From Erythrobacter sp. JK5 (GTDB lineage Bacteria > Pseudomonadota > Alphaproteobacteria > Sphingomonadales > Sphingomonadaceae), in NCBI RefSeq assembly GCF_018205975.1, contig NZ_CP073577.1, positions 558,001 to 622,000 of the forward strand: 64,000 bases of DNA, in the 5' to 3' direction. Positions 11,850 to 43,304 of the stretch are shown here, one piece after another. The position numbers and the translations under genes were made by a program. The notes below the pieces were generated by a model, which was not told where the DNA came from, did no database searches, and was given only the letters and a program-made list of their open reading frames with translations. How positions within the stretch are numbered: the first letter of the stretch is position 1; each line of letters starts with the position of its first letter.

Positions 11850-11937
11850 CGTCGCCCCGTGCTTGACACGGGGTCGGGCTTTTTTGCTTCAAAGTCTGAG
11901 GGAAGAAGCCTTGCCCCGGATCAAGTCCGGGGCGACG
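11850..11937. repeat. inverted pair of palindromic repeats (REPIN-like)
   Basis: The left copy (11850-11880) reads CGTCG then stem CCCCGTG-cttga-CACGGGG. The right copy (11911-11937) has stem CCCCGGA-tcaag-TCCGGGG followed by CGACG, the head read from the other strand. Heads point outward. The left copy ends in six T residues and could terminate plus-strand transcription. The pair lies between the divergent trhO upstream side and the ilvE 3' end. Confidence 0.7.
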
Positions 11938-13796: not shown

Positions 13797-14354
13797 CTAC
13801 CGACAATCCTCGATCACCCGCGTTACTTCGACCCAGGCGGGAAGGTAGAGCGTGCGCTCGCCCTCGACCTCGAGCGCGAACCGACCCTTCGTGATCGCCA
13901 TCGCATCGAGCAAGGCGTCGCGCGCATCGATCTCGGCAGCGACCAGCGGGCTGCCGCTCTCGCGGGTGACCGCTTCGAGCATCCCGGTGCGGGTCTCGGT
14001 GCGGATCCGCATGGCTGCGGCCGCGCGGTTCGAGCCGAACCGTCCGATGCCGATCCGCCGGGTGCGCAGATCGCAGCGGACGATCGCCAGCGGCTCGGCC
14101 CGGCCGGTGCCGAAGATCGCGAAGGTCTCCTGGCTTTCGGCAGCGTAGCTCCAGTCGCCGGGGGTTTGCGGCGCGTCGAGATAATTGTCGAACACCGGCT
14201 CGGTCACCACCGGCGCGGGTGGCGGCGCGGGGCGCGGGGCGGGGGCCGGAGTTGCAGCCGGAGCGGGCGCGGCGGTGCGCGGGGCCGGAACGCAGGCGGC
14301 GATGAGACAAGTGAGCGCCAGCGCGCCGGCGACGTGGAGGTAGATCGCTTTCAT
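13797..14354 (-). CDS. putative lipoprotein, hypothetical
   Basis: This 185-aa protein has a lipoprotein signal peptide; the lipobox LIAAC places the modified Cys near residue 21. A Pro/Ala-rich linker (about residues 25-50) is followed by a globular domain beginning FDNYLDAPQTPGDWSYAAE. Two cysteines in that domain (VRCDLRTRR and the C-terminal VIEDCR) could form a disulfide. The globular part resembles uncharacterised envelope proteins of sphingomonads. The function is unknown. It is divergent from tlyA with only 34 bp between starts. Confidence 0.75.
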   Translation of the reverse strand: MKAIYLHVAGALALTCLIAACVPAPRTAAPAPAATPAPAPRPAPPPAPVVTEPVFDNYLDAPQTPGDWSYAAESQETFAIFGTGRAEPLAIVRCDLRTRRIGIGRFGSNRAAAAMRIRTETRTGMLEAVTRESGSPLVAAEIDARDALLDAMAITKGRFALEVEGERTLYLPAWVEVTRVIEDCR

Positions 14355-14388
14355 GCCGCCTCAATGCGCGCTAACGGCAAAAGGGTCC

Positions 14389-15174
14389 ATGAACAATCAC
14401 GAGAAACCCCCCGGGAATCCGGCGAACAAGAAGCGCGTCGATCATCTGCTGGTCGAACGCGAGCTCGCCGAAAGCCGCACCCGCGCGCAGGCGCTGGTGA
14501 TGGCGGGTGTGGTGTTCTCGGGCGAGAGCAAGATCGCCAAGCCGGGCCAGCAGCTAGCGCGGGACGCGCCGCTCGAAGTGCGCGGGCGCGATCATCCCTG
14601 GGTCAGCCGCGGCGGGATCAAGCTGGCGCATGCGATCGGGCATTTCGGCCTCGATCCCACGGGTGCGGTGGCGATGGATATCGGCAGCTCGACCGGCGGG
14701 TTCACCGACGTGCTGCTGACGCACGGGGCCGAGCATGTCTTCGCGGTCGACAGCGGGACCAACCAGCTCGCCTGGAAGCTGCGGCAAGACCCGCGCGTGA
14801 CCGTGCTCGAACAGACCAGCGCGCGGATCCTCACGCCCGAACACATCGATCGCGCGTGCAATTGGGTGGTGTGCGATGCGAGCTTCATCGGGCTCGCCAA
14901 GGTGCTCGAACGCCCGCTCGAACTGGCAGCCCGGGAATGTCAGTTGGTCGCTCTGATCAAGCCGCAATTCGAAGTCGCGCGCGAGGAAGTCGGCAAGGGC
15001 GGCGTGGTCCGCGATCCCGCCCTGCACGAGCGGGTGTGCGGCGAAGTTCGTGAATGGTTGGAGGGGCTTGGCTGGGACATCGAAGGTATCGTCGAAAGTC
15101 CCATCACCGGGCCGCAAGGGAACGTGGAGTTCCTGATTTCGGCGAGGCGCCCTGCGTCGTCATTGCGAGCGTAG
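14389..15174 (+). CDS. tlyA: TlyA family rRNA (cytidine-2'-O)-methyltransferase
   Basis: This 261-aa protein has an N-terminal S4 RNA-binding domain (KRVDHLLVERELAESRTRAQALVMAG) and a FtsJ-like methyltransferase domain (VSRGGIKLAHAIGHF, MDIGSSTGGFTDVLLTHGA, VALIKPQFE). TlyA enzymes 2'-O-methylate 16S C1409 and/or 23S C1920 and affect capreomycin sensitivity; some also act as hemolysins. The ATG at 14389 has AAAGGG upstream. The last codons and the stop lie inside the short repeat at 15158-15185, so the native C-terminus was replaced or extended by repeat sequence. Confidence 0.93.
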   Translation: MNNHEKPPGNPANKKRVDHLLVERELAESRTRAQALVMAGVVFSGESKIAKPGQQLARDAPLEVRGRDHPWVSRGGIKLAHAIGHFGLDPTGAVAMDIGSSTGGFTDVLLTHGAEHVFAVDSGTNQLAWKLRQDPRVTVLEQTSARILTPEHIDRACNWVVCDASFIGLAKVLERPLELAARECQLVALIKPQFEVAREEVGKGGVVRDPALHERVCGEVREWLEGLGWDIEGIVESPITGPQGNVEFLISARRPASSLRA

Positions 15175-15185
15175 CGAAGCAATCC
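15158..15185 (+). repeat. palindromic repeat, left flank of GIY-YIG pseudogene
   Basis: CGTCATTGCGAGCG-ta-GCGAAGCAATCC is a near-perfect hairpin with the CGTCA head on the left. The inverted partner is at 15497-15530. It overlaps the tlyA stop codon and directly abuts the nuclease remnant. Confidence 0.8.
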
Positions 15186-15491
15186 TTGGACCGAACATCC
15201 GATTTTCAGCCAGCCGCATACATTGTGGCGAACCACGAGAATGGAACGATTTACACGGGTGTGACCTCGAAGCTGCCTCGCCGGGCGTGGGAGCATCGGG
15301 AGGGTCTCGTCGACGGTTTCTCAAAGAGGCATGGCTGCAAGCGACTTGCCTGATTCGAACTTCATTCGACCATGGAAGCCGCGATCCTTCGGGAGAAGCA
15401 GATAAAGGGCGGATCGAGGGCAAGGAAAATCGCTCTTATCGAGACTTCAAATCCCGAATGGCGTGACTTGTTCTTTGATCTCAACCGCTAG
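15186..15491 (+). pseudogene. GIY-YIG nuclease pseudogene (in-frame stop)
   Basis: The frame encodes a small single-domain GIY-YIG nuclease: AYIVANHENGTIYTGVTSKLPRRAWEHR contains the two GIY/YIG strands and the catalytic Arg region. After KRLA comes TGA where homologues have a residue such as Trp in a LVWFE-like strand. The same frame then continues FELHSTMEAAILREKQIKG... (catalytic Glu helix) to NPEWRDLFFDLNR and a final TAG. No ATG start remains; TTG at 15186 is the first possible. It fills the space between two inverted repeats almost exactly and is a relative of the intact gene at 17779-18066. Confidence 0.8.
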
Positions 15492-15496
15492 CCCAT

Positions 15497-15530
15497 GGAT
15501 TGCTTCGTCGCTGCGCTCCTCGCAATGACG
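15497..15530 (-). repeat. palindromic repeat, right flank of GIY-YIG pseudogene
   Basis: This is an inverted copy of 15158-15185. On the minus strand it reads CGTCATTGCGAG, a CGCAGCG insert, then CGAAGCAATCC. The CGTCA head points outward. It lies between the nuclease remnant and the 3' end of the next gene. Confidence 0.8.
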
Positions 15531-15538
15531 AAAACACT

Positions 15539-16213
15539 TTAGGCCATTTCCTCTTCGGGCCAGTCGAGCGAATTGATCTTCGCATCGAGGTCGATCGGAG
15601 TCTGCGACAGCACCTCGACCCCGCTGGCCTTTTCGTAGGCGGCTTCCTCGCCGTGCTCCGCGACCAGTTCGGCGTGCTTGGCGTCGCGCGCGCGGATCAG
15701 TTCGGCGATCTCGTCGCGGTACAGCGCCACCATCGCGGTGACGAAGCGGTTGACGCAGTCGTCTTCCTTGGTGTGATCGACATTGTAGGCGGGCAGGTGC
15801 TCGATCATCACCTCCGCCGGAAACAGGAATTCATTGGTGACGAACCGGTTCACGGTGAACCACGCGCGCGGGATGCCCAGCGTGTCGATCGACAGCGCGA
15901 TCAGGTGCGTCACATGCGCGCGCGCCTCCTCGCGCTGCGGGGGCCAGACCTTGGGTTCGAGCCCCTCGGGCAGCTGCGTGCGGTGCAGGAACAGGTGGAA
16001 ATGGCCATGCTCGTCCGGATCGCGATCGCCGGGGGCGTGCACGTGGTAATACCAGCGCGCCTTGCAGAATTCGTCGCGCGCGTCGGCCTTTGGATAATGT
16101 TCCCAGAAGGTTGCGCCGCCTTCGGGCACCACGCGCAGCATCAGCGGTCGCTGTTCCTGCGCCATCCGGGTGATGGTTTCGATGACGGTCCGGGCGGCTT
16201 CGATCTGATCCAT
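15539..16213 (-). CDS. conserved hypothetical protein (DUF6969-like)
   Basis: This 224-aa soluble protein has no signal peptide. It is rich in His and aromatic residues: FWEHYPKADARDEF, ARWYYHVHAPGDRDPDEHGHFHLFLH, and a helical C-terminal half. The clustered histidines (HVH, HGHFH) suggest metal binding, but no family mechanism is known to me. It resembles the uncharacterised DUF6969 group of alphaproteobacteria; that assignment is from memory. The stop lies directly beside the repeat at 15497-15530. Confidence 0.75.
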   Translation of the reverse strand: MDQIEAARTVIETITRMAQEQRPLMLRVVPEGGATFWEHYPKADARDEFCKARWYYHVHAPGDRDPDEHGHFHLFLHRTQLPEGLEPKVWPPQREEARAHVTHLIALSIDTLGIPRAWFTVNRFVTNEFLFPAEVMIEHLPAYNVDHTKEDDCVNRFVTAMVALYRDEIAELIRARDAKHAELVAEHGEEAAYEKASGVEVLSQTPIDLDAKINSLDWPEEEMA

Positions 16214-16236
16214 GGCCAGCGCCTAGAATGCAGAAA

Positions 16237-16267
16237 GGCCGGCGGCAACATCGCGTTGCCACCGGCC
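16237..16267 (-). terminator. terminator after the Cys-rich lipoprotein gene
   Basis: GGCCGGTGGCAAC and GTTGCCGCCGGCC pair over 13 positions with one mismatch around a 5-nt loop, followed on the minus strand by TTTCTGC. It lies just downstream of the 16294-16551 gene. Confidence 0.75.
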
Positions 16268-16293
16268 AGTCCAATCAGGTCTGCAAGTGGTGC

Positions 16294-16551
16294 TTAGGCA
16301 GCCGGCTCGCAGCCGGCGGCGGCGCAGCAAGCACCTTCGCAAGCCGCTTCGCAGCCCGCCGCTGCACAGGCAGCGCCTTCGCATGCAGCAGCGCAAGCCG
16401 GGGCGGCTTCGCACGTGGCCGCGGCGCAGTCGGCGACGGCGGTGGTGTCGGCATCGGTGGCGGCGTCGTCGGCCGGAGCCGAGCACGCTGCCGTGGCAAC
16501 TGCGAGACCGCCGGCGACAGCGAGCATCGAAGCGAAGTTGGTCTTTTTCAT
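16294..16551 (-). CDS. small Ala/Cys-repeat lipoprotein
   Basis: This 85-aa protein has a lipoprotein signal peptide ending VATAAC, with lipidated Cys23. The mature chain is almost only Ala, Cys, Glu, Gly and Asp. Ten cysteines fall at 4-6 residue intervals (42, 47, 53, 57, 62, 67, 71, 75, 76, 81). A 14-residue unit starting CEGA and containing CAAAGCE is duplicated in tandem. The composition suggests a metal-binding or redox-buffering protein anchored in the envelope; this is inference. It is followed by a strong terminator and is monocistronic. No family is recognised. Confidence 0.7.
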   Translation of the reverse strand: MKKTNFASMLAVAGGLAVATAACSAPADDAATDADTTAVADCAAATCEAAPACAAACEGAACAAAGCEAACEGACCAAAGCEPAA

Positions 16552-16864
16552 GTAATTCGTTCCCCTAATTGGGCCCCTTATCGGGCAGGACGCGCGAAAG
16601 GATGATTTCTTGCCACCTCACGTCCCGAATCGCGGCAAGAATGTGGCGACGCTAGCAGAATGATGCGCGATCGCACACGGATTTCAGCTTGTTTCGTATT
16701 TCGCATGCAAAACTAATCGGTTGATGCACGCGCCGTCACGGCGAGGGGGACAAACGGGGGACGACGATTGGCGCAGAACGCGCGGTTGTGTATCCGCGCC
16801 TAAGGGCAATTCGGAGCGGCGAATCGCACGTGCACAGCGTCGCCGCCGGAGATCGGGAGAGACG
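16552..16864. other. 313-bp intergenic region
   Basis: This separates the divergent Cys-rich lipoprotein gene and tspO and must hold both promoters. TTGCAT-N18-TGAAAT on the minus strand around 16675-16705 is a candidate promoter for the lipoprotein gene. No further gene or RNA is visible. Confidence 0.35.
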
Positions 16865-17413
16865 ATGAATTTCCTCGCATCGAAGGCGCAGCTGCGCGCC
16901 AGCCTGCTGCGGTGGTCGCTGTTCCTGGTTCCCCTGATCGTGCTCTTGGGTTTTCTCGGCGGGCAGATGGGCAGCCCGCAGACGGCGTGGTTCGCAGGGC
17001 TGGCGAAACCCGCGATCTATCCGCCACCGGCTGCCTTCGGGATCGTCTGGAGCATCCTCTACGTTTTGATCGGATTTGCGCTTGCGCTGGTGGTGAGCGC
17101 GTGGGGCGCGGCCGGGCGCGGGGTCGCGATCGTCGTGTTCGCAGCGCATTTCATCGGCAATCTGGCGTGGACTGCGGTGTTTTTCGGCATGCAGGACATC
17201 ACCGGAGCGCTGATCGTTCTCGGCTACACGCTGGTCACCCTGGTGGCGGTGATCGCGGCATTCTGGCGGGTGCGACGCAGCGCCGCGTTGCTGTTGCTGC
17301 CGTATCTCGCGTGGGTCGCGTTCGCGACGCTGCTCAACTATCAGTTCCTTGCGCTCAATCCCGATGGCGGCGGGTCCGGCAGTACCGAGGCGGTCGAGCG
17401 GGTGCGGTTGTAG
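16865..17413 (+). CDS. tspO: TspO/MBR family protein
   Basis: This is a 182-aa inner- or outer-membrane tryptophan-rich sensory protein with five hydrophobic helices. Family marks are the loop PAIYPPPAAFGIVWSILYVLIG, NLAWTAVFFG, and the C-terminal AWVAFATLLNYQFLALN. TspO binds porphyrins and, in Rhodobacter, modulates photosynthesis gene expression in response to oxygen. This makes it of interest in a clade with aerobic phototrophs, though no photosynthesis genes lie in the window. The start has GGGAGAG seven bases upstream. Confidence 0.93.
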   Translation: MNFLASKAQLRASLLRWSLFLVPLIVLLGFLGGQMGSPQTAWFAGLAKPAIYPPPAAFGIVWSILYVLIGFALALVVSAWGAAGRGVAIVVFAAHFIGNLAWTAVFFGMQDITGALIVLGYTLVTLVAVIAAFWRVRRSAALLLLPYLAWVAFATLLNYQFLALNPDGGGSGSTEAVERVRL

Positions 17414-17457
17414 CAAATCCCCTTGCCCTCGAGCACGAGCATCGCCAGATAGCGCGC

Positions 17458-17706
17458 ATGCAAAGCGAAAACCCGATCATCGCCGACTTCGTCAAACTCG
17501 CCAACAGCGCGGCAGGCACCTTTGCCGGGATGACCCGCGAGGCGCGCGAGAGCGCCCGCGAACGCATGCGCGAGGCGCTGGGCGGAATGGATTTCGTCTC
17601 GCGCGAGGAGTTCGAGACGGTCAAGGCCATGGCGCAGAAGGCGCGCGAACAGGCCGACGCGCTCGAAGCCAAGGTCGCCGAGCTCGAGGCGAAGCTCGAA
17701 AAGTGA
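17458..17706 (+). CDS. ubiK: accessory factor UbiK family protein (BMFP)
   Basis: This 82-aa protein matches the membrane-fusogenic/UbiK (YqiC) family. An N-terminal amphipathic segment (IIADFVKLANSAAGTFAGM) precedes a coiled coil (about residues 45-82) ending EAKVAELEAKLEK, with the conserved FVSREEFETVKAMAQKAREQ motif. UbiK binds UbiJ and promotes aerobic ubiquinone synthesis in enterobacteria. The ATG at 17458 gives the canonical length. Confidence 0.85.
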   Translation: MQSENPIIADFVKLANSAAGTFAGMTREARESARERMREALGGMDFVSREEFETVKAMAQKAREQADALEAKVAELEAKLEK

Positions 17707-17708
17707 CC

Positions 17709-17739
17709 CGTCGCCCCTGCGAAGGCAGGGGCCCAGATA
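17709..17739 (+). repeat. palindromic repeat, left flank of GIY-YIG gene
   Basis: CGTCG head, stem CCCCTGC-gaag-GCAGGGG, tail CCCAGATA. It starts three bases after the ubiK stop. The inverted partner is at 18079-18112. Confidence 0.85.
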
Positions 17740-17778
17740 GGCTGGCTGTTTGGTCGATTCGCTCCTATTGGCGTGCTG

Positions 17779-18066
17779 ATGGGCGGCTGGGTCTACATCA
17801 TGACAAACGGACCGCACGGTACGCTGTATATCGGAGTGACCTCTGATCTGGTTTCTCGAATTGCCGCGTACCGGGAAGGGCGTGGCTCCGAGTTCTGCCG
17901 CAAGCATGGACTGACCCGCCTCGTCTATGTCGAGCGATATGAGAGGATCGACGACGCGATATCCCGCGAAAAGGCGATGAAGCGCTGGAAGCGGCAGTGG
18001 AAACTCAAGCTGATCAGGCGCGACAATCCCGACTGGAACGACCTGTTTGAGACGGTCAATGCGTAG
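17779..18066 (+). CDS. GIY-YIG nuclease family protein
   Basis: This is a 95-aa single-domain GIY-YIG endonuclease. WVYIMTNGPHGTLYIGVTSD carries the GIY and YIG strands, and the next helix has the catalytic Arg (LVSRIAAYREG). His-containing RKHGL, LVYVERY, and the Glu of DAISREKAMKRWKRQWK complete the active site; NPDWNDLF closes the fold. Such proteins are often misnamed as UvrC subunits. The ATG at 17779 is preferred to the GTG at 17773. The gene is bracketed at 39 and 12 bp by inverted palindromic repeats, which suggests it is part of a repeat-mobilising unit. Confidence 0.92.
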   Translation: MGGWVYIMTNGPHGTLYIGVTSDLVSRIAAYREGRGSEFCRKHGLTRLVYVERYERIDDAISREKAMKRWKRQWKLKLIRRDNPDWNDLFETVNA

Positions 18067-18078
18067 TCCGACACCGAC

Positions 18079-18112
18079 CGTTATCTGGACCCCTGCCTTC
18101 GCAGGGGTGACG
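18079..18112 (-). repeat. palindromic repeat, right flank of GIY-YIG gene
   Basis: On the minus strand it reads CGTCA, stem CCCCTGC-gaag-GCAGGGG, then TCCAGATAACG. The stem is identical to the left copy at 17709-17739 and the head points outward. Confidence 0.85.
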
Positions 18113-18125
18113 CAATGAGCTAGAC

Positions 18126-18728
18126 GTGCACCTGCGCGCCCCTGCCATTCTCGTCGCTTCCCGGCCTCACGGTGAAACCGCCACGATCGCGCGGTTGCTG
18201 ACCGAGGAATATGGCCTGGTCGCCGGCTACGTCGCCGGCGGGCGCGGGCGGCAATTGCGGCCGGTGATGATCCCGGGCAACCGCGTTGCGGCAGAATTGC
18301 GCGCCCGATCCGACAGCCAGCTGCCGTTTGCGCGGCTCGAGCTGGAAGAGAGCCGCGGCCCGTGGATGACCGAACCGCTGCCTGCCGCCGCAATCACCTG
18401 GGCCTGCGCGCTCACGGCCTCGTCCCTGCCCGAGCGCAATCCCTATCCCTCGCTCTATTCGGCGCTCGACGCGCTGCTTTCGGCGATCTGCAATGCGCCG
18501 TCCGCGCGCGGCTGGCTGGCCGCGATGGTGGCGTACGAGACCATGCTGCTGCGCGAGCTCGGCTATGGCGGGGAGCGCCCGGACATGCACAGCGGTTTCG
18601 ATACCCAGTTTGCCGCGTTCCGCCGTCTCCATCAGCCGCTGAAGCGCTACCTGTTTGCCGACAGCCATGGCGATGTTATGGCCGCGCGCGTGCTGTTGGG
18701 GGAGCGGCTGAGCCGCATGCAGGAGTGA
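18126..18728 (+). CDS. recO: DNA repair protein RecO (short form)
   Basis: This 200-aa protein has the N-terminal OB fold of RecO (APAILVASRPHGETATIARLLTEEYGLVAGYVAGGRGR) and the helical domain with YPSLYSALDALL and MVAYETMLLRELGYG. RecO anneals single strands coated with SSB and loads RecA with RecR. Typical RecO is about 240 aa. The zinc-binding segment that usually follows the LL.ELG helix, and the SP.SGRAV stretch, are absent here. Start is GTG at 18126. The gene lies 13 bp after the repeat unit and 10 bp before leuB. Confidence 0.85.
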   Translation: MHLRAPAILVASRPHGETATIARLLTEEYGLVAGYVAGGRGRQLRPVMIPGNRVAAELRARSDSQLPFARLELEESRGPWMTEPLPAAAITWACALTASSLPERNPYPSLYSALDALLSAICNAPSARGWLAAMVAYETMLLRELGYGGERPDMHSGFDTQFAAFRRLHQPLKRYLFADSHGDVMAARVLLGERLSRMQE

Positions 18729-18738
18729 GTTTCGGATC

Positions 18739-19797
18739 ATGAAGATTGCGGTTCTGCCGGGCGACGGGATCGGTCCCGAGGTAACGCGCGAAGCGGTGCG
18801 CGTGCTGGAAATGCTGGGCCTGCCCGGCCTCACCCTGTTCGACGGCGACGTCGGCGGCATCGCGTACAAGCGCCATGGCCAGCCGCTGCCCGAAGAAACG
18901 CTGACCATCGCGCATGCGTGCGACGCGGTGCTGTTCGGTGCGGTGGGCGATCCGGAGTGCGACGGGCTGGAGCGCAAACTGCGCCCCGAGCAGGCGATCC
19001 TCGGCCTGCGCAAGCATCTCGGACTGTTCGCCAATTTGCGCCCGGCGAGGGTATTTGCCGGGCTCGAACATCTCTCGCCCCTGAAGCCCGAAATCGCCCG
19101 CACGCTTGACGTGATGATCGTGCGCGAGCTCACCGGCGATATCTACTTCGGCGACAAGGGTGAGCGCGCGGCCAGCGACGGTTCGCGCGAGGGGTGGGAC
19201 ATGATGTCCTATTGCGAAACCGAAGTGCAGCGGATCGCCCGGGTCGCCTTCCGCACGGCGCGCAGCCGCGATTGCCGGGTCTGCAGCGTCGACAAGGCCA
19301 ATGTGCTCGAAACCAGCCAGGTGTGGCGCGATACGGTGAAGGCCGCAGCCGGATCGCATCCGGATATCGAGCTCAGCCACATGTATGTCGACAACGCGGC
19401 GATGCAGATCATCAGCAACCCGGCTCAGTTCGGCGTGATCCTGACCGGCAATCTGTTCGGCGATATCCTGTCCGACCTTGCGAGCGCAGCGGTCGGCTCG
19501 ATCGGACTGTTGCCGAGCGCCTCGATGGGCGACCGGGCGACCGAGTTCGGGCGGTTCGGCCTGTATGAACCCATCCACGGCAGCGCGCCCGATATCGCCG
19601 GGCAGGGCAAGGCCAACCCGATGGCAACGATCCTGTCGGCGGCGATGATGCTGCGGCATTCGTTCGGACGCGAAGCCGATGCGGTGCGGATCGAGACCGC
19701 GGTGGAGAGGGCGCTGGCCGACGGGATCCGCGGCGGCGATCTGGGCGGCGATCACGGCACCGAGGAAATCGGCGCGGCGGTGCGCGAGCGGCTGTAG
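18739..19797 (+). CDS. leuB: 3-isopropylmalate dehydrogenase
   Basis: This 352-aa enzyme oxidatively decarboxylates 3-isopropylmalate with NAD+ in leucine synthesis. Visible are LPGDGIGPEVT at the N-terminus, the substrate arginines in LRPEQAILGLRKHLGLFANLRPAR and MIVRELTGDIYFG, and the C-terminal GSAPDIAGQGKANPMATILSAAMML signature. leuA, leuC and leuD are not in this window, so the leucine genes are scattered. Confidence 0.96.
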   Translation: MKIAVLPGDGIGPEVTREAVRVLEMLGLPGLTLFDGDVGGIAYKRHGQPLPEETLTIAHACDAVLFGAVGDPECDGLERKLRPEQAILGLRKHLGLFANLRPARVFAGLEHLSPLKPEIARTLDVMIVRELTGDIYFGDKGERAASDGSREGWDMMSYCETEVQRIARVAFRTARSRDCRVCSVDKANVLETSQVWRDTVKAAAGSHPDIELSHMYVDNAAMQIISNPAQFGVILTGNLFGDILSDLASAAVGSIGLLPSASMGDRATEFGRFGLYEPIHGSAPDIAGQGKANPMATILSAAMMLRHSFGREADAVRIETAVERALADGIRGGDLGGDHGTEEIGAAVRERL

Positions 19798-43195: not shown

Positions 43196-43304
43196 CGTCA
43201 CCCCTGCGCAGGCAGGGGTCCAGATACGGGCAATTGCCGGGAGAGACTCAAGGTATCAGCGAGCCACGACCGTTATCTGGGTCCCCGCCTTCGCGGGGAT
43301 GACG
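43196..43304. repeat. inverted repeat pair (REPIN-like) between rpsL and rpsG
   Basis: The left copy (43196-43228) reads CGTCA, stem CCCCTGC-gcag-GCAGGGG, then TCCAGATA. The right copy (43271-43304) on the minus strand reads CGTCA, stem TCCCCGC-gaag-GCGGGGA, then CCCAGATAACG. Heads point outward, with 42 bp between them and no gene inside. Confidence 0.85.

Follow-up and report, generated by a model that had tools for sequence, protein, structure and literature searches.

Two units in which a small GIY-YIG nuclease gene is enclosed by an inverted pair of short palindromic repeats lie at positions 15158-15530 and 17709-18112 of the window analysed here, a 64,000-nucleotide stretch of Erythrobacter sp. 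JK5 (NZ_CP073577.1, positions 558,001 to 622,000). The first-pass annotation of this DNA had described two such genes between inverted repeats, and both units are confirmed as real; however, only the nuclease gene of the second unit is intact, the first being broken by a TGA codon. In the following we describe the two units, ask how nuclease and repeat are associated across related genomes, and weigh a module that spreads with its own repeats against the alternative explanations.

Organization of the two nuclease units

Unit 2 consists of a 97-residue GIY-YIG nuclease gene on the forward strand (17773-18066; PF01541, E=1.1e-12) flanked by two CGTC-headed 28-mers of repeat class A.tgc, at 17709-17736 on the forward strand and 18085-18112 on the reverse strand, which lie within 31-nt arms showing 94% complementarity. 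Each of these repeats folds in a 4+8+4+8+4 arrangement, with a head of 4 nt, a stem of 8 bp, the loop GAAG and the tail CCAG. Unit 1 is built from class C repeats (CGTCATTGCGAG...GAAGCAATCC), positioned at 15158-15185 on the forward strand and at 15497-15530 on the reverse strand, where the head (CGTCATTGCGAG) lies at 15530. The class C nuclease frame between them (15186-15491, forward strand) is interrupted by an in-frame TGA at 15351-15353, at a residue that is tryptophan in two class C relatives compared. The stretch from the left repeat to the domain contains no ATG but has a TTG at 15186, and the frame is open upstream as far as an ATG at 15054, which lies within the preceding open reading frame (ORF). 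The latter (14353-15174), which we take by eye to be a tlyA-like gene, has its stop codon supplied by the left repeat of unit 1. Folding of the class C repeat is weak and irregular, with the left hairpin of unit 1 giving -2.7 kcal/mol (z -0.23) when folded alone.

In both units the repeat heads face outward and the tails inward toward the gene, and the stem classes of the two units differ, as originally described. The coordinates first given for the right-hand repeats, 15497 and 18079, correspond to the inner side of these repeats or are off by a few bases, the heads lying at 15530 and 18112. PADLOC returned no match, NCBIfam gave none above its cut-offs, and Rfam gave none within window positions 14000-19000.

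The nuclease of unit 2 harbors Y8, Y19, R29, E66 and N85, all invariant across a 20-row alignment and presumably the catalytic residues of the GIY-YIG family. Its structural model (mean predicted local distance difference test score, 95.3) is predicted to adopt a GIY-YIG-type fold. Structure comparison of the model ranked UPF0213 (PDB 1zg2) first and then Slx1, with a weak score (best E=1.2e-3), and a sequence search for solved structures likewise placed this UPF0213 entry first (E=4.1e-5). Within classes, the ratio of nonsynonymous to synonymous substitutions in the domain was 0.135 at the median and below 1 in all 82 pairs, which are not independent of each other; judged by these substitution ratios, the nucleases are under purifying selection.

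Flanking repeats are enriched around small GIY-YIG genes

The host genome (G000; 3.34 Mb, single contig) yielded six GIY-YIG matches, one of them uvrC-like (686-residue frame) and the other five small genes. Class repeats with outward heads flank all five small genes on at least one side and four of the five on both, and the five genes represent five different fine repeat classes. These classes are motifs that were written after viewing the same flanks, with nuclease sequences not used. Most have the head CGTC, while the heads of classes E and F are CCGTTCG, and the loop of class B is CTTGA. The comparison was extended by Pfam search to 61 genomes, comprising G000, 36 further members of its genus and 24 from its order. 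The sample taken from them contains all listed matches whose frame length did not mark them as uvrC-like, 106 from other genomes and five from G000 (n=111), and 13 of the listed uvrC genes served as a control; loci were taken with up to 5 kb per side.

Enrichment was scored as the best ungapped inverted repeat between the 300-nt flanks of a gene, with random positions of the same loci (n=1080) and the uvrC genes (n=13) as controls. A score of at least 16 was obtained for 80 of the 111 listed small GIY-YIG genes, compared with 4/1080 random positions and 0/13 uvrC genes. Raising the threshold to 18 left 77 of the listed genes and neither random positions (0/1080) nor uvrC genes (0/13), and lowering it to 12 admitted 98 listed genes, 30 random positions and a single uvrC gene. 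Class cores in the 260-nt flanks of the listed genes had their heads outward in 184 instances and inward in 47.

A further, cross-genome set was assembled from the best 80 loci found in all genomes with one query, 70 of which had flanks long enough for scoring. Here a score of at least 16 was reached near the gene at 32 of the 70 loci and at the distal flanks at one. The positive loci came from several proteobacterial classes as well as from metagenome-assembled genomes labelled Patescibacteria, Atribacteria, Thermoflexus and Halobacteria, although such labels may be wrong. A mismatched-flank control was rejected for this set, as 64 of 391 comparisons scored at least 16 owing to a repeat common to loci, and distal flanks were used instead. 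In a plasmid collection, relatives of the intact protein occurred in 34 records and the class C repeat in five; an inverted pair scoring at least 26 was found at four of the five plasmid loci inspected, the Rhizobium rhododendri locus having none. A phage search with the protein of locus L046 gave no match.

Nuclease clade and repeat class vary together

A repeat class was assignable at 100 of the 111 listed genes, and at 83 it was present on either side of the gene when one mismatch was permitted. On the nuclease tree, which is based on few columns and has many open forks, class changed 22 times, compared with a mean of 72.4 and a minimum of 65 in 500 shuffles. The same pattern emerged for rows with repeats on both flanks (17 changes versus 58.2 shuffled) and for the same-genus rows among them (13 versus 51.7).

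To remove the effect of inheritance in place, units were grouped by shared flanking genes, which assigned the 82 genus units to 42 sites when either flank had to be shared and to 51 when both did. When each unit was compared with the closest nuclease located at a different site of a different genome, fine class agreed in 58 of 81 cases and broad class in 69, compared with a mean of 8.5 and a maximum of 21 fine-class matches when labels were shuffled (1000 shuffles). Twelve of the 23 fine-class mismatches belonged to classes that occur at one site or nearly so (D, F and A.ggc). At the broadest level, CGTC-headed repeats go with the clade of the window genes and the CCGTTCG-headed repeats of classes E and F with the YTGHTDDL clade. 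As far as sequence comparison reaches, and with genomes taken as independent, the association and the class matching of nuclease and repeat are established.

One neighbourhood, beside a gene that we take by eye to be sucD, is occupied by loci L141, L076, L078, L043 and L091, where the repeat class differs between species (A.ggc in three, a GTGAGTCC-headed repeat in two). Either repeated insertion or a joint change of nuclease and repeat in place would produce this arrangement.

Repeats outside the units and head-out dimers

Repeat abundance was tested across 37 genomes, treated as independent, with nuclease presence taken from among the matches listed and nuclease class read from the flanking repeat. 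Class C repeats outside units had a median of 34 in genomes with the matching nuclease versus 3 in those without it (11 versus 26 genomes, P=2.7e-4), and the corresponding medians were 9 versus 2.5 for class E (9 versus 28 genomes, P=0.0042), 6 versus 0 for class D (7 versus 30 genomes, P=0.006) and 2 versus 0 for B.gtg (9 versus 28 genomes, P=0.013). Cross-class tests gave P>0.05 in 11 of 12 cases.

Repeats found elsewhere in the genomes are often organized as 75-120-bp dimers with heads outward. The class A pattern occurs 26 times in G000, with seven copies beside three nucleases, 16 in eight head-out pairs spanning 75-109 nt and three as singles, and a reversed control pattern occurs 0 times. 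The 114 class C copies in four of the listed genomes (G011, partly listed, and G063, with two copies, were left out) form 37 head-out pairs, which span 64-121 nt and in most cases 99-104 nt, and include no head-in or tandem pairs within 200 nt; four pairs have the spacing of a nuclease unit, three of these being units of the sampled set. Across all fetched DNA, same-class neighbours within 600 nt were head-out in 97 instances, head-in in 24 and tandem in 12.

The window itself contains two head-out dimers without a gene, one of class B at 11850-11937 (88 bp) and one of class A at 43196-43304 (109 bp), each folding into a single hairpin (z -5.87 and -4.03, respectively). The right ends of the class A dimer and of unit 2 have CCAGATAACGGTCG in common, which is what derivation of dimers from units would predict. 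More generally, comparison of dimer interiors with unit ends gave a small same-class excess among pairs that are not independent, with one clear example in the window. Between the two nuclease units, an 85-residue ORF on the reverse strand (16294-16551) begins with what resembles a signal peptide and has a long Ala- and Cys-rich tail containing numerous cysteines.

Empty sites and duplicated units

A joined-flank search recovered empty sites for both window units. The genes that we take by eye to be ubiK and recO are separated by no more than 44 nt in 24 of 27 resolved loci, by 418 nt in G000 and by 370 and 375 nt at L161 and L165 (genomes G020 and G021). Within the inspected part of the L161 gap there is no CGTC repeat, and a different small ORF may be present. 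Behind the tlyA-like gene, where 15 of 30 loci were unresolvable, the gap is 12-141 nt in 12 of the 14 other resolved loci and 523 and 316 nt in the remaining two. Each of the two units is missing from the majority of the resolved genus relatives. Six genomes (G028, G026, G033, G036, G038 and G012) contain two similar unit copies at different places, which are 81.5-98.5% identical over 415-481 bp and have flanks that are not alignable.

Outside the repeat heads, certain 8-mers are over-represented, for example in 11 of 97 elements versus 1 expected, an excess that may stem from sites which related species have in common. A second palindromic motif (GCGGACAT/GGGTCGTTAGC-like; ATGTCCGC...GGGTCGTTAGCGGACAT-like) was found no farther than 90 nt from 15 of 64 units, 2 of 33 dimers and 4% of random positions, with a narrower form at 6 of 97 elements versus 2.5%; it was written after viewing these flanks and serves as a lead only. 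Examples are present in the outer flanks of L074, L075, L088, L118 and L125, and it is possible that the motif represents an insertion target or the end of a larger unit.

Relationship to known repeat and nuclease systems

The repeats described here resemble the CGTC superfamily, which is characterized by a CGTC head, an 8-bp stem, a 4-nt loop and an unpaired CCA-like tail and occurs predominantly in Alphaproteobacteria (Di Nocera, De Gregorio, Rocco 2013, PMC3733652); stems of 8-9 bp and loops of 4-5 nt were admitted in the comparison made here. That survey found CGTC repeats spread over five phyla, equated the dRS3 repeat of Neisseria with CGTC-1 and described A-T pairs at stem positions 1-2 as nearly constant; the repeats apparently lack a dedicated transposase, and GIY is absent from the main text (PMC3733652). 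Class A and unit 2 repeats match the superfamily in head, stem, loop and tail measures, and its dispersed copies, mostly inverted dimers, are mirrored by class A in G000 and class C in four genomes. The near-constant A-T stem pairs are found in class A.gcg, which has ATTCCCGC, but not in unit 2, where the left side has GC and the right side AC. The distinguishing feature of the present system is a GIY-YIG nuclease tied by class to the repeats, and the findings suggest that small GIY-YIG nucleases are partners of this widespread repeat family.

A second likeness is to the REP-associated tyrosine transposases (RAYTs) and their repetitive extragenic palindromic (REP) sequences, the RAYT/REPtron systems, in which an enzyme gene lies beside REPs, dispersed inverted doublets form hairpins, and enzyme and repeat co-evolve (PMC3116915, PMC8266576, PMC2817692). 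The dimers of the window and others like them resemble REP doublets forming hairpins (REPINs) in being dispersed inverted doublets that fold into one hairpin. In contrast to RAYT systems, the enzyme here is a GIY-YIG protein and not an HUH tyrosine (Y1) transposase, and the heads are CGTC or CCGTTCG and not GTAG.

Among GIY-YIG proteins, those of UPF0213 are nearest by structure; L037 and L038, which by eye we take to be UPF0213-like, lack a flanking class repeat. A relative of the nuclease with 46.5% identity is present in Neisseria gonorrhoeae, where it lies among CGTC-1-like repeats. Two 2.17-Mb Neisseria gonorrhoeae records filed as plasmids, NZ_CP119140.1 and NZ_CP119142.1, are chromosome-like. 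Ssn of Neisseria is reportedly a single-stranded, site-specific GIY-YIG nuclease with NTS repeats, said to have appeared in Nature Communications in 2025, where its description reportedly concerned transformation and its use as a tool. If so, Ssn and the proteins studied here are both single-domain GIY-YIG nucleases whose cognate DNA sequence occurs in repeated copies, and the present system differs in the five nuclease-class pairs of one genome, its gene-flanking head-out modules and its REPIN-like dimers. Taken together, the gonococcal relative among CGTC repeats and the reported Ssn/NTS pair indicate that a nuclease-repeat partnership as such is probably already known for Neisseria. Among the papers listed by searches of open-licence PubMed Central (4-30 per search, often fewer than were found), none connects GIY-YIG nucleases with CGTC or REP repeats, and we could not find there the class-by-class co-variation, the five pairs in a single genome, the REPIN-like dimers or the tie to CGTC repeats.

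A probable class-specific module and its alternatives

We consider it fairly probable that the units represent a class-specific nuclease-repeat module that spreads in the manner of RAYTs and REPINs. Under this explanation, each unit would be a small selfish module whose flanking inverted CGTC palindromes act as the recognition sequence of its own nuclease. The nuclease would most likely bind and nick its own repeat class when the DNA is single-stranded or extruded as a hairpin, a putative cleavage to which both GIY-YIG chemistry and the reported activity of Ssn point. Cutting may in turn drive copying, in that host repair or replication would copy the module and, in trans, the gene-less dimers with the same repeats, which would constitute its REPIN-like, non-autonomous form. 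Nuclease and repeat would have diversified jointly into classes, so that several pairs could reside in one genome. The more sweeping proposal is that small GIY-YIG nucleases mobilise the whole CGTC superfamily and the CCGTTCG family in many phyla without an HUH, DDE or serine/tyrosine recombinase, class-specific nicking of hairpins and host repair copying module and dimers alike; this we regard as evenly poised between true and false.

Much of the first-pass interpretation is retained here. The RAYT/REPIN-like layout that it proposed holds and extends to head-out dimers elsewhere in the genomes, and the three features that it suggested looking for were each observed, namely strong enrichment of flanking repeats relative to random positions and uvrC, agreement of nuclease clade with repeat class, and sites that are empty in most resolved genus relatives. 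Its claim that no such partnership had been described is doubtful, weakened by the reported Ssn/NTS pair and the neisserial relative among CGTC repeats, and its interpretation overall is partly supported.

Several observations weigh against a mobile, class-specific module. No class repeat was found at 11 of the 111 listed small GIY-YIG genes, and 16 of the 17 Sphingomonas-labelled loci of the cross-genome set scored 10 or less. Presence of the B.gtg nuclease also accompanies more class C repeats (P=0.0085), which indicates that part of the abundance signal may reflect shared ancestry, and head-in pairs do occur (24 versus the 97 head-out). G000 contains 48 class C heads, yet the only class C nuclease found there is broken, making class C in this genome a test case for repeats whose enzyme was lost. 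The edges of the duplicated units lie near the CGTC heads and not exactly there, extending up to ~50 nt beyond and often farther on one side, and neither a target-site duplication nor a precise junction was seen at the units, whose relatives, each species being represented by one genome, are too diverged (identity 70-79%) and hide the exact junction edges. Finally, GIY-YIG enzymes are not, to our knowledge, known to form the covalent intermediate of HUH transposases, and a full transposition pathway would therefore need additional host factors.

The Sphingomonas loci without a strong flanking repeat are L218, L223, L227, L230-L237, L241, L247, L249, L252 and L253, and their nucleases are possibly domesticated.

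The chief rival gives the cutting of repeats by the nuclease a different function, for instance in controlling DNA uptake. As an Ssn-like regulator, the enzyme would cleave class-matched repeats in single-stranded form and thereby direct DNA uptake or recombination, the repeats would persist or spread by other means, and the flanking pair would be its own target or a control of its expression and not mobile ends. The reported Ssn/NTS pair and the position of the neisserial relative among CGTC repeats fit such a role, as does the retention of many same-class units at one site across species (for example, six of the seven class D units). The occurrence of one class at many sites (the 13 A.gcg units occupy 11), the within-genome duplicates, the absence of units from most resolved relatives and the dimer with unit-like ends all speak for movement instead, leaving a purely regulatory role unlikely in our judgement but deserving serious attention.

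A free-standing homing endonuclease, which would cleave an empty site and be copied in by repair with the repeats incidental, would account for the sites that are empty in most resolved relatives, and homing endonucleases do occur among GIY-YIG enzymes (PMC1564403). A homing target would, however, be split by the insert, while here both flanks carry complete repeats, at junctions too diverged to read; the same-class palindrome on both flanks of 83 of the 111 genes, a class that tracks the nuclease across sites, and the gene-less same-class dimers elsewhere in the genomes make homing an improbable explanation. Mobilisation of the repeats in trans by a RAYT or other IS200/IS605-type transposase, with the nuclease units as cargo, draws on the link between REPINs and RAYTs (PMC3116915, PMC8266576), but we give it very little credence: at E 0.001, PF01797 was detected in three of the 37 genus genomes searched and not in the other 34, which include G000 and of which many are repeat-bearing, and the repeat classes were found in the flanks (up to 1.5 kb) of 0 of the 15 PF01797 loci fetched. 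Equally hard to sustain is the idea that the palindromes are terminators or mRNA-protecting hairpins gathering beside any small gene, for although REPs lie mostly downstream of coding regions according to the 2013 survey (PMC3733652), the repeats here occur on both sides of the gene, are class-matched with heads mostly outward, and do not gather at random positions or uvrC, the two controls used.

Implications for CGTC repeats

The proposed class-specific nuclease-repeat module bears on a question that the 2013 survey left open, namely the identity of the enzyme of CGTC repeats, for which the GIY-YIG nuclease is now a candidate. With a class-matched nuclease at hand, this question is reduced to one assay per nuclease-repeat pair. 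If mobilisation proves true, a simple nicking nuclease could drive the spread of repeats without a classical transposase. The natural series of co-diverged pairs of nuclease and hairpin would also be a ready source of material for work on, and applications of, sequence-specific cleavage of single-stranded DNA.

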